Assembly (NCBI GenBank): GCA_030831165.1
Contig: JAURLP010000033.1
Span: 1-64,000 of the forward strand
DNA length: 64,000 bases
Direction of reading: 5' to 3'
From: Gammaproteobacteria bacterium
GTDB taxonomy: Bacteria > Pseudomonadota > Gammaproteobacteria > Pseudomonadales > Pseudohongiellaceae
The position numbers were made by a program, and so were the translations under genes. Positions 38,173-44,479 of the stretch are shown here, in pieces. How positions within the stretch are numbered: position 1 is the first letter of the stretch; every line of letters begins with the position of its first letter. Under the pieces are notes generated by a model. It worked only from the letters and a program-made list of their open reading frames with translations, searched no databases and was not told the origin of the DNA.

Positions 38173-38622
38173 ATGTATGCGGTTATAGAAAGTGGTGGCA
38201 AACAGCATCGCGTAGAAGAAGGCCAAGTGCTGAAATTAGAAAAACTGGATGCCAGCACAGGTGACAGTATCAATTTCGATAAGGTTTTGATGATTGGTGA
38301 AGGTGCCGGCGTTAAGATTGGCAAGCCTTATGTTGAAGGAAGTGTGACAGCTGAAGTTATCAGTCACGGTCGTGGAGATAAAGTTTCCATCATCAAATTC
38401 CGTCGCCGTAAGCATCATATGAAACGTCAGGGACACCGACAATGGTTTACTGAAGTTAAAATTACGGGAATTAGTGAAGGTAAAGCCGCTCCTGTTGCTA
38501 AAGCAGCAAAAGCCAAAGCGACTGATGAAGACGCTTCGGCAAAAGCAGCAGCCAGAAAAGCACCAGCTAAAAAGAAGGCTCCTGCTAAGGCTAAAACCAA
38601 GACTACTGAGAAAGGAGATTAG
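38173..38622 (+). CDS. rplU: 50S ribosomal protein L21 with basic C-terminal extension
   Basis: 149 residues. The first 103 are the normal L21 ([25 protein letters not shown] to [25 protein letters not shown]). The extra 45 residues are almost only Lys, Ala, Pro and Thr, like a histone-H1-type tail, so the protein is about half again as long as usual. L21 binds 23S rRNA. rpmA starts two bases after its stop. Confidence 0.97.
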
Positions 38623-41291: not shown

Positions 41292-41318
41292 AAAAAAACC
41301 GGGTTAGCCGGTTTTTTT
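41292..41318. terminator. Bidirectional terminator between proB and rpsT
   Basis: AAAAAAACCGG / CCGGTTTTTTT with a GTTAG loop. Runs of A before and T after make it active on both strands, between two convergent genes. Confidence 0.9.
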
Positions 41319-41340
41319 ATGTCCATAGTTAAAGAGCTAA

Positions 41341-41607
41341 CTAGGCTTTTAAGGCCTTGATACTGGCATTAAGTCTGCTCTTATGGCGAGCTGCCTTGTT
41401 TTTATGGATGATGCCTTTATCCGCCATTCTATCGATGACAGGTACAGCCGAATTATAGGCTGTAGTCGCAGCATCATAGTCTTTGCTATCAATCGCGCTG
41501 TCTACCTTTTTGATATAGGTGCGGACCATGGAACGGAAGCTGGCATTATGGTTTCTACGGGTTTCTGCCTGTTTTGCTCTTTTACGAGCTTGTGGTGAGT
41601 TAGCCAA
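41341..41607 (-). CDS. rpsT: 30S ribosomal protein S20, UUG start
   Basis: 88 residues. Lys/Arg/Ala-rich three-helix protein ([36 protein letters not shown]) that binds 16S rRNA. The start codon is TTG at 41607, nine bases after AAAGGAG. E. coli rpsT also starts with UUG, which is part of its autogenous translational control. The leader carries tandem repeats (see 41625). Divergent from murJ. Confidence 0.97.
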
Positions 41608-41624
41608 AGTGGGCTCCTTTAATT

Positions 41625-41680
41625 AATTCGTTAACATCAATTCGTTAACATGAATTCGTTAACATTAATTTGTTAACTCA
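41625..41680 (-). repeat. Four tandem 14-bp units in the rpsT leader
   Basis: AATTCGTTAACATC, AATTCGTTAACATG, AATTCGTTAACATT and the diverged AATTTGTTAACTCA follow without gaps, each with a GTTAAC palindrome. They sit 17 bases before the rpsT start codon, inside the predicted transcript. Confidence 0.9.
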
Positions 41681-41701
41681 AAACTTGTGTTTATTTTTGA
41701 G

Positions 41702-41725
41702 TTTCGGAAGGTTTTGCTTCCCGAA
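41702..41725 (-). promoter_or_regulatory. Hairpin near the 5' end of the rpsT leader
   Basis: On the minus strand TTTCGGGAAG pairs with CTTCCGAAA (one bulged G) around CAAAAC. It begins a few bases after the predicted start of transcription and has no T-tract, so it is more likely a stability or control element than a terminator. Confidence 0.5.
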
Positions 41726-41736
41726 AAAAGACGCGA

Positions 41737-41765
41737 ACTATGCAGTTTTGCTGCTGAAAAGTCAA
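41737..41765 (-). promoter_or_regulatory. Putative sigma-70 promoter of rpsT
   Basis: On the minus strand TTGACT, a 17-base spacer and CATAGT. Transcription would begin near 41730 and give a leader of about 120 bases. Confidence 0.6.
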
Positions 41766-41830
41766 TAGTGGCGCTGGTTTTATGCCAGTCTAATAGCTAT
41801 GATGCGAACTTTTAGTCTGTAAAGACCCTT

Positions 41831-43414
41831 ATGCAAGAAGACATTACCTCAAATAAAAGTGGGCCAAAGGGCAAGGAAAGCAGCGACAGCCTGGCCAGAT
41901 CGAGCATGGTTGTTTCATCGCTTACTTTTTTTTCGCGTATTCTGGGTTTGGTTCGAGAAATTGTCTTTGCGGCCTTCTTCGGTGATAGTGCGCAGGCTGA
42001 TGCCTTTTTCGTTGCTTTTCGTATTCCTAATTTTTTGCGTCGCTTGTTTGCAGAAGGAGCTTTTTCTCAGGCCTTTGTGCCAGTCTTATCAGAATATAAA
42101 CAAAAGCACTCTTTCGCTGAGATAAAAGAATTCGTTGATCATGTTGCCGGCAGGCTTACCTTAATTCTGCTGTCTGTCAGCATTGTTGGTGTGATTGGCG
42201 CACCTGCTCTGGCAGCTTTGTTCGCCAGCGGTTACCTCGATGATGGGGATAAATTCTCCCTGTTAGTGGAGATGTTGCGAATTACCTTTCCTTATATTCT
42301 ACTTATTTCACTGACTGGTTTTGCTGGAGGGATACTAAATAGCTATGGTCGTTTCGCTGTGCCTGCAGTGACCCCGGTTTTCCTTAATATTTCATTGATA
42401 TCTTGTGCCATTTGGTTGAGTCCTTTATTTGAAGAACCCGTCATCGCAATTGCCTGGGGTGTGATCATAGCTGGGCTTATACAGTTGATGTTTCAGCTGC
42501 CTTTTCTGGGGCATTTGCATTTAATTCCACGTCCACGTTTAAAGCCCAAACATGAAGGCGTAACACAAGTGATTACCTTAATGATTCCGGTGATATTTTC
42601 GGTTTCTGTGGGTCAGATCAATCTCTTGCTAGATACGGTGCTTGCCACCTTTATTGAAGGTGATGGCAGTGTCAGTTGGTTATATTATGCCGATCGGATT
42701 ATGTATCTGCCCTTGGGAGTATTTGCAGTTGCTATAGCAACGGTCATTATGCCCAGCCTGTCTCGTAAACATGTCGATGAATCTGTAGAGCAGTTTAAGG
42801 AAACCCTGGACTGGGGTTTGCGCTGTATATTATTGATAGCCTTGCCAGCCACTATTGCCCTCATAAGTTTGGCAGAACCAATGGTAATAACACTTTATCA
42901 GCGAGGAGAATTTGGCGTTGATTCCGTGCTGCCAACATCTCGAGCCTTGCAAGCCTATGCCTTGGGTTTGCTGGCCTTTATGGCTATCAAGGTGTTGGCC
43001 AGTGCGTATTTTTCCAGACAAGATACCAAGACGCCTGTGCGTTATGGAATCATTGCAATGATCAGTAATATGGTAATGAATCTATTGTTAATTTTGCCGC
43101 TAGCACATATTGGTTTGGCATTTGCTACAGCCTTTTCATCCTGGGTAAATGCCGGACTATTATTATTTGGTTTAATGAAATTGAAATTATTCAGTTTTCA
43201 TCGTCCTTTCTTTTTTATGTCCTTACAAATCATTCTGGCTAATGTATTGATGTTGGTATTTCTGTTGGGATTTAATTCGCCTGCAGATCAATGGTTTGAA
43301 TGGAGCACTTTGGCAAGAGTCAGTAACTTAGCTTTTCTTTGCCTCGGTGGCGGTGTTTGTTATGGTTTAGCCCTGCTACTGGTTGGTATTCGCCCGAAGC
43401 ATTTTAGTCATTAG
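41831..43414 (+). CDS. murJ: Lipid II flippase MurJ
   Basis: 527 residues, about 14 membrane helices. FFSRILGLVREIVFAAFFGDSAQADAFFVAFRIPNFLRRLFAEGAFSQAFVPV is the near-invariant N-terminal region of MurJ; DTVLATFIEGDGSVSWLYYADRIMYLPLGVFAVAIATVIMPSLS is the central one. It moves lipid II across the inner membrane. First gene of murJ-ribF-lspA-fkpB-ispH. A 12-base dyad GTCTGTAAAGAC sits 4 bases before the start. Confidence 0.97.
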   Translation: MQEDITSNKSGPKGKESSDSLARSSMVVSSLTFFSRILGLVREIVFAAFFGDSAQADAFFVAFRIPNFLRRLFAEGAFSQAFVPVLSEYKQKHSFAEIKEFVDHVAGRLTLILLSVSIVGVIGAPALAALFASGYLDDGDKFSLLVEMLRITFPYILLISLTGFAGGILNSYGRFAVPAVTPVFLNISLISCAIWLSPLFEEPVIAIAWGVIIAGLIQLMFQLPFLGHLHLIPRPRLKPKHEGVTQVITLMIPVIFSVSVGQINLLLDTVLATFIEGDGSVSWLYYADRIMYLPLGVFAVAIATVIMPSLSRKHVDESVEQFKETLDWGLRCILLIALPATIALISLAEPMVITLYQRGEFGVDSVLPTSRALQAYALGLLAFMAIKVLASAYFSRQDTKTPVRYGIIAMISNMVMNLLLILPLAHIGLAFATAFSSWVNAGLLLFGLMKLKLFSFHRPFFFMSLQIILANVLMLVFLLGFNSPADQWFEWSTLARVSNLAFLCLGGGVCYGLALLLVGIRPKHFSH

Positions 43415-43486: not shown

Positions 43487-44479
43487 ATGCCCATGCAAGT
43501 TTTTGATAACCTTCAAGCAATAAGTTCTGCTTACTCTCAGTGTGTACTGACTGTCGGGAAATATGATGGTATGCATTTGGGGCATCAACAGATATTAGAT
43601 CGCTTGAATAGGGTCGCCGCTGAGTTGGCTTTACCATCTCTGGTAATTCTTAGTGAACCGCAACCGGAAGAATATTTCGCTGGTCAAAACGCTCCTGCAA
43701 GATTACTTTCTTTTGAAGACAAATTAACTTTTCTAGAGGGTGTTGGGATAGATTTTGTTTACAAAATGAAGTTTGATCACCAGCTAAGCCAGCTAAGTGC
43801 TGAAGCTTTTATCAATGATATTTTACATCAGGGCTTGGGCGTAAAAGCCATGATTGTGGGTGATGATTTTCATTTTGGCAAAGACCGTTTGGGTAATTTT
43901 AAATTACTCCAGTCTGAAGGAAAGCGCTTGGGATTTAGTGTGGAAGCCGCGGAAGAATGCTTGTGTAATGGCCAAAGAGTAAGCAGCACCTTATTGAGGC
44001 AAAAGCTAGAGTCAGGTGATTGTGAGGGCGCCCATCTCTTATTAAACCGACCTTATCACTTAAGTGGAGAAGTCATAAAAGGCATGCAGTTGGGTCGGGA
44101 GTTGGGTTATCCCACGGCAAATCTCAAGACAGGGATCAGTAAACTGGCCTTAGAAGGGGTCTTTGCCGTAACAGTAGAACTTGATGACCGCACTATACAG
44201 GGAGTTGCAAGCTTGGGTTACAAACCGACTATTGAAGGCGAGAATGATTTAGCGGTAGAAATATATTTAATAGATTTTGATGAAGATATTTATGGGCAAA
44301 AACTAAGGGTTAATTTTCTTAAAAAAATCAGGGATCAGGAAAAATTTTTAAATTTGGAAGAGTTGAAAAATAATATTGCCGGAGATGTGGCTAAAGTAAA
44401 AAAATATTTTTCAGGTCAACAGCCTTTTGAAATACAAAGTTTTAAGATCAGAAGACAAGAGGTTAGCGATGTCAACTGA
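43487..44479 (+). CDS. ribF: Riboflavin kinase / FAD synthetase
   Basis: 330 residues, bifunctional. Adenylyltransferase half with GKYDGMHLGHQQIL (the HxGH loop) and a later VSSTLLRQKLESGD; kinase half with GRELGYPTANL and the GVASLGYKPTI segment. Makes FMN and FAD from riboflavin. Its end overlaps lspA by 11 bases. Confidence 0.96.
   Translation: MPMQVFDNLQAISSAYSQCVLTVGKYDGMHLGHQQILDRLNRVAAELALPSLVILSEPQPEEYFAGQNAPARLLSFEDKLTFLEGVGIDFVYKMKFDHQLSQLSAEAFINDILHQGLGVKAMIVGDDFHFGKDRLGNFKLLQSEGKRLGFSVEAAEECLCNGQRVSSTLLRQKLESGDCEGAHLLLNRPYHLSGEVIKGMQLGRELGYPTANLKTGISKLALEGVFAVTVELDDRTIQGVASLGYKPTIEGENDLAVEIYLIDFDEDIYGQKLRVNFLKKIRDQEKFLNLEELKNNIAGDVAKVKKYFSGQQPFEIQSFKIRRQEVSDVN

Follow-up and report, generated by a model that had tools for sequence, protein, structure and literature searches.

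A lineage-specific array of 14-bp tandem repeats in the rpsT leader of a gammaproteobacterium, probably a near-neutral expansion

The question raised by this locus is whether four near-identical 14-bp units, standing just upstream of the Shine-Dalgarno sequence of a ribosomal protein gene, take part in the control of that gene or record a duplication that the leader has tolerated. The gene is rpsT, encoding ribosomal protein bS20, and it lies in a stretch of 64,000 nucleotides (GCA_030831165.1, contig JAURLP010000033.1, positions 1 to 64,000) from a gammaproteobacterium of the Pseudohongiellaceae, the whole of which is called the window here. Table 1 collects the features of the locus.

Table 1. 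Features of the rpsT locus in the window
Feature	Position	Strand	Basis
Promoter TTGACT-17-CATAGT, then TCGCGTC	41737..41765	-	Consensus scan and family comparison
5' leader hairpin	41702..41726	-	Predicted fold; hairpin there in the first-50-nt fold of 4/5 genus leaders
Second predicted leader hairpin (CTCAAAA...TTTTGAG)	41677..41701	-	Predicted fold
Repeat unit 1, GTTAACAAATTAAT	41664..41677	-	Unit alignment and TRF
Repeat unit 2, GTTAACGAATTCAT	41650..41663	-	Unit alignment and TRF
Repeat unit 3, GTTAACGAATTGAT	41636..41649	-	Unit alignment and TRF
Repeat unit 4, GTTAACGAATTAAT	41622..41635	-	Unit alignment and TRF
Shine-Dalgarno AAAGGAG, 6 nt before UUG	41614..41620	-	Sequence; AGGAGCCCA plus 2 nt before UUG in 5/5 genus genomes
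rpsT (ribosomal protein bS20), UUG start	41341..41607	-	ORF of 88 aa

The rpsT gene, its leader and the array

The minus-strand ORF begins with TTG, as the initial annotation had read it, and UUG, the weak start expected of an S20-controlled leader, was found in all 129 rpsT copies of the window's family, with or without repeats, so that the UUG start is unrelated to the array. These copies come from 137 family genomes, 129 of which gave an rpsT match and eight of which did not; G135 held a fragment lacking the start and G098 held two copies, which brings the number of leaders to 129. A search of relatives returned matches in 92 of 95 genomes, the window's own genome being counted in both sets. 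For G098, which belongs to genus g3, contamination (5%) is a possible source of two rpsT copies in one genome. Among 21 copies fetched from other families (36 genomes of the same order had a match), the starts were 6 UUG, 13 GUG (11 counted directly and two whose GTG precedes the match by one codon) and 2 AUG, and the best 80 named loci comprised 64 GTG, 13 TTG and 3 ATG. One genome of the same order, G065, has its leader in common with Endozoicomonas arenosclerae (L048), of the GTDB order Pseudomonadales, and four family members (G050, G033, G016 and G011) have leaders identical to those of metagenome bins assigned only to Gammaproteobacteria. Section 2.9 of PMC10931766 describes UUG as typical of several gammaproteobacterial families only, and the window's family adds to the UUG users listed there.

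The leader predicted from the promoter measures about 123 nt, with an estimated start near 41730, in agreement with the roughly 120 bases proposed initially. A consensus scan of the window alone performed no better than chance, finding two promoters against a mean of 3.1 in shuffles. The family comparison was more informative, since TTGAC paired with a -10 element occurred within 350 nt upstream of 126 of the 129 family copies and of 20 of the 21 other-family copies (shuffle mean 4.5 of 129), and a stricter form in 125/129 and 9/21 copies, respectively, and in no shuffle. This recurrence favours a transcript start upstream of the repeats; no promoter was matched in three of the family's 129 leaders. 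In the window's genus, five genomes were compared, one per species (the window's own, G000, and G001 to G004). The -10 element CATAGT with the downstream TCGCGTCTTT is identical in all five, the -35 element is TTGACA in the other four and TTGACT in the window, and the spacing from Shine-Dalgarno to UUG is the same in every one of them. Within the family, leaders vary considerably in length, from 39 to 202 nt in the 126 for which a promoter was matched. In genus g3, by contrast with the loose long leaders elsewhere, the 16 rpsT copies have leaders of just 43-44 nt and all carry GCCACACGTTGACAGTA, absent from the 113 other family leaders, which might be a conserved control element.

Between the 5' hairpin and the Shine-Dalgarno sequence stand four adjacent 14-bp units at 41622-41677 on the minus strand, pairwise identical at 12-13 of 14 positions, units 2 to 4 differing from one another at position 12 only. 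This confirms the four exact or near-exact tandem units described at first, and the stated gap of 17 nt to the start codon holds in the register used then (41625-41680). The units contain the palindrome GTTAAC, and one of them GAATTC. The array heads the 25 TRF rows of the window with a score of 86, and dinucleotide shuffling of the window, repeated 100 times, gave 74 at most; the array is beyond chance and has the near-identical adjacent units of a variable-number tandem repeat. Besides, its two-unit 25-mer pattern is unique at up to two mismatches in the 2.30-Mb draft genome (39 contigs). The same genome carries, as separate observations, a 24-bp repeat of 8.9 copies at a contig end (L174:1-214) and an exact 72-bp tandem duplication (L167:2903-3046).

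Some features of the gene neighbourhood are recorded here in their own right. ORFs read as ribF and lspA adjoin or overlap at 44427-44479 of the window. The gene ileS, whose usual place we take to be between these two, lies about 66 kb from them on the same contig (G000:C25:110869-113385); in G002, G003 and G004 its distance from rpsT is about 64-88 kb. In addition, the rplU product encoded at 38173-38622 is 149 aa long and has a C-terminal tail rich in alanine and lysine, and rplU matches outside genera g1 and g2 stop at residue 101-129.

Copy number within the genus and origin of the array

The initial annotation had proposed comparing repeat number in near relatives, absence in all of which would count against a role, and the outcome is that the repeats are missing from some of them only. 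The two-unit pattern, at up to three mismatches, was detected in two of the five genus genomes, with three overlapping matches in G000 and one in G004. Reading the leaders by eye gave four units in G000, two in G004, one diverged unit in each of G001 (GAATTAACGAATTACTG) and G003 (GAATTAACGATTTACTG), and none recognisable in G002. The first unit of G004 (ATTAACAAATTAAT) has the same letters as unit 1 of the window except for the first. The predicted leaders measure 123 nt in G000, 95 in G004, 93 in G001, 87 in G003 and 71 in G002, and the leader of G000 exceeds that of G004 by exactly 28 nt, or two units of 14. The copy-number series, this exact 28-nt difference and the fixed Shine-Dalgarno spacing are direct observations. 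They include a whole-unit copy difference between close relatives (four against two), as is found in variable-number repeats, here between species only. Judged by these five genomes, the leader has not conserved the array even within the genus.

Stepwise tandem duplication from one to two to four units would be the natural reading of the series. We therefore favour, with a probability of roughly three in four, a recent stepwise and near-neutral duplication within the spacer of an otherwise ordinary rpsT leader, meaning one with a strong promoter, a GC-rich discriminator, a 5'-proximal hairpin, an AU-rich spacer, a strong Shine-Dalgarno sequence and a UUG start. A 14-bp piece of the spacer may have been duplicated in an ancestor common to G004 and the window's lineage, and would then have expanded to four copies in the window's lineage, possibly by slippage or by unequal recombination. 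The prediction for the RNA is that the array pairs internally and leaves the Shine-Dalgarno sequence no less accessible, and the expansion would have been tolerated at little or no cost; most likely it was tolerated rather than selected.

The units contain the self-complementary pieces GTTAAC and AATT, and the array is therefore predicted to form an AU-rich hairpin in which units pair with one another, a structure that the initial annotation had not mentioned. Its hairpin at 41702-41725 emerged again from the folding (Table 1), together with a second one that it had not mentioned and that folding did not predict for the other four leaders of the genus. The fold of the window leader has a z of -2.49 against shuffles, 4 of 200 shuffles being as good. 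When units were removed in silico, the predicted unpaired probability of the Shine-Dalgarno sequence was 0.51, 0.52, 0.51, 0.51 and 0.50 with zero, one, two, three and four units, and that of the UUG codon 0.55, 0.57, 0.48, 0.44 and 0.45, which suggests no effect of unit number at the former and a small one at the latter. Signs of a conserved leader structure were mixed. Across 97 family leaders of at least 55 nt, the first 50 nt had a mean z of -0.97 against shuffles (-1.70 in genus g8, -1.58 in g5 and -1.40 in the window's genus) and the last 50 nt one of -0.10. A specific conserved arm of the 5' hairpin was considered and set aside, the shuffle test giving P values of 0.45 in the window's genus and 0.74 in g2, though 0.03 in g8.

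Regulatory and other readings of the array

A different reading is that copy number tunes the expression of rpsT, slippage-variable length altering translation or mRNA stability. Extra units could supply AU-rich standby or S1 sites, or GAAUU-type RNase E sites. Another possible route is through AUG decoys lacking a Shine-Dalgarno sequence at three unit junctions. The unit count does differ between species, arrays of other units (13 nt in G020, 14 nt in G054 and G058) occupy the corresponding part of the leader, ahead of the Shine-Dalgarno sequence, in two further genera of the family, and the predicted accessibility of UUG falls from 0.57 with one unit to 0.45 with four. However, the predicted accessibility of the Shine-Dalgarno sequence does not change, the leaders of G001 and G003 contain no AUG, the units of the three array lineages look unrelated on reading, and arrays are no rarer in the leaders of rplU, although that control is small. 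We consider tuning unlikely. The initial annotation had also proposed a stretch of slippage that adjusts how far the ribosome site lies from it. The series of one, two and four units is compatible with growth by slippage or duplication, but a simple adjustment of distance is not supported, the array being upstream of a Shine-Dalgarno sequence whose spacing is fixed in all five genomes.

The frequency of arrays bears on whether rpsT leaders are special in this respect. Of the 129 family leaders, 128 were long enough for a 130-nt array test, and four of these, from three lineages, held an array with a TRF score of at least 50, the window array having the highest score among the 128; none of the 21 other-family rpsT leaders reached a score of 30. 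The pattern of G054 and G058 is present in two of the 14 genomes of their genus. In the rplU control set, with 30 loci returned out of 55 genomes (four from other families, and L272 with a misplaced start), two of the 30 leaders held such an array, one of them scoring 85-86, both from genus g8 (G011 and G016). Fisher's test gave P = 0.31 (4/128 vs 2/29), and P = 0.66 for a rough count by lineage (3/61 vs 2/29). An excess of arrays at rpsT was seen against dinucleotide shuffles (score of at least 50 in 4 of 70 leaders, a set with 14 from other families, where 40 shuffles averaged 0.05) and not against rplU leaders, and it was rejected on these grounds; a moderate excess is possible, the rplU control being small. 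As a further yardstick, a 382-kb sample of the genome, window included, holds five arrays of score at least 50, that of the window among them, in 41.7 kb outside ORFs of at least 80 aa; this amounts to 0.016 arrays per 130 nt, or about two expected in 128 leaders. The window array is the strongest of these five and the only noncoding array in the sample with a score of at least 80. Overall, arrays arise in leaders of this group generally, and nothing singles out rpsT. It is very unlikely that 13-14-nt tandem expansions have arisen repeatedly and independently in the rpsT leaders of the family, immediately before the Shine-Dalgarno sequence (three different arrays in three genera), as a site where unit number tunes initiation at the weak UUG over evolution. 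In the control set we also observed a tandem array of about four AACGATCATTG units some 85-130 nt upstream of rplU (L277, from G011).

The multi-site RNA platform suggested by the initial annotation, at which S20 or another protein would bind the repeats as part of autogenous control, found no support. The UUG start, the long leader and the near-identical units would suit such a platform, but the repeat is absent or single in three of the four other genus genomes, UUG is present irrespective of repeats, array frequency shows no excess over rplU leaders, and no k-mer of the family leaders exceeds the shuffle maximum. The k-mer search covered 106 leaders longer than 45 nt, trimmed of their first 12 and last 13 nt and reduced to 61 cluster representatives, with 100 shuffles; the top 6-mer counted 12 against a largest shuffle count of 13 (mean maximum 9.4), and the top 7-mer, AGCAAAA, 8 against 8 (mean maximum 5.4), so that a weak shared A-rich signal is possible. 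For E. coli, section 2.9 of PMC10931766 reports no measured affinity of S20 for its own mRNA; it also states that no conserved structure has been found and that autoregulation has been neither established nor disproved. Searched against Rfam with E up to 5, the interval 41300-41850 gave no gathering-level match, and its two sub-threshold matches, to Tetrahymena and Plasmodium RNAs, were discarded as implausible families. We regard the platform as highly improbable.

A misjudged unit count is about as improbable, for even though the genome is a draft of 39 contigs, the units differ from one another at single positions and the 56-bp array is shorter than typical reads. Least credible of all is an operator, with tandem transcription-factor sites hindering transcription at the DNA level, since its only favourable signs are the palindromes GTTAAC and GAATTC, while the 14-bp spacing is out of helical phase, the array would span roughly +54 to +109 relative to the estimated start, and no second copy of the two-unit pattern exists in the genome at up to two mismatches, hence no regulon of such arrays.

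Related repeats and the meaning of the array

The rpsT leader of E. coli K-12 resembles that of the window in its UUG start and, within 250 nt upstream, in a promoter-like stretch TTGACA ... CATATT and a GGGAG Shine-Dalgarno sequence, and differs in having no TRF array at a score of at least 20 in those 250 nt, so that the repeats were rightly said not to be part of the E. coli leader. The nearest analogue found in the literature is the TAACTGA direct repeats of Beggiatoaceae (MacGregor 2015, PMC4679880), which stand upstream of start codons, some of them at ribosomal protein genes, and for which a translational role is suggested there rather than shown. Both cases concern short direct repeats close to a start codon, but that account describes one heptamer in 169 sets in a genome, mostly at the Shine-Dalgarno position, and the window has a single 14-bp array upstream of an intact Shine-Dalgarno sequence, its two-unit pattern occurring only here at up to two mismatches rather than at many genes. 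In its lineage-specific copy number and whole-unit length difference the array is like ordinary noncoding variable-number repeats of bacteria, from which it differs by its place inside a ribosomal protein gene leader.

The array is unreported in the literature found on rpsT leaders and autogenous control, r-protein leaders, rpsT mRNA and RNase E, and tandem or direct leader repeats. In the main text of PMC7247131, S20 is absent and rpsT appears once, in the row of an L20 leader of Deltaproteobacteria.

These results provide a clean negative, in that a striking repeat in an r-protein leader proved to be lineage-specific and arrays were not visibly rarer at a control gene. Repeats in r-protein leaders should thus not be taken as regulatory platforms by default. 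Moreover, the UUG start of all rpsT copies in one further gammaproteobacterial family offers further natural material for testing a possible coupling between UUG and S20 autoregulation.
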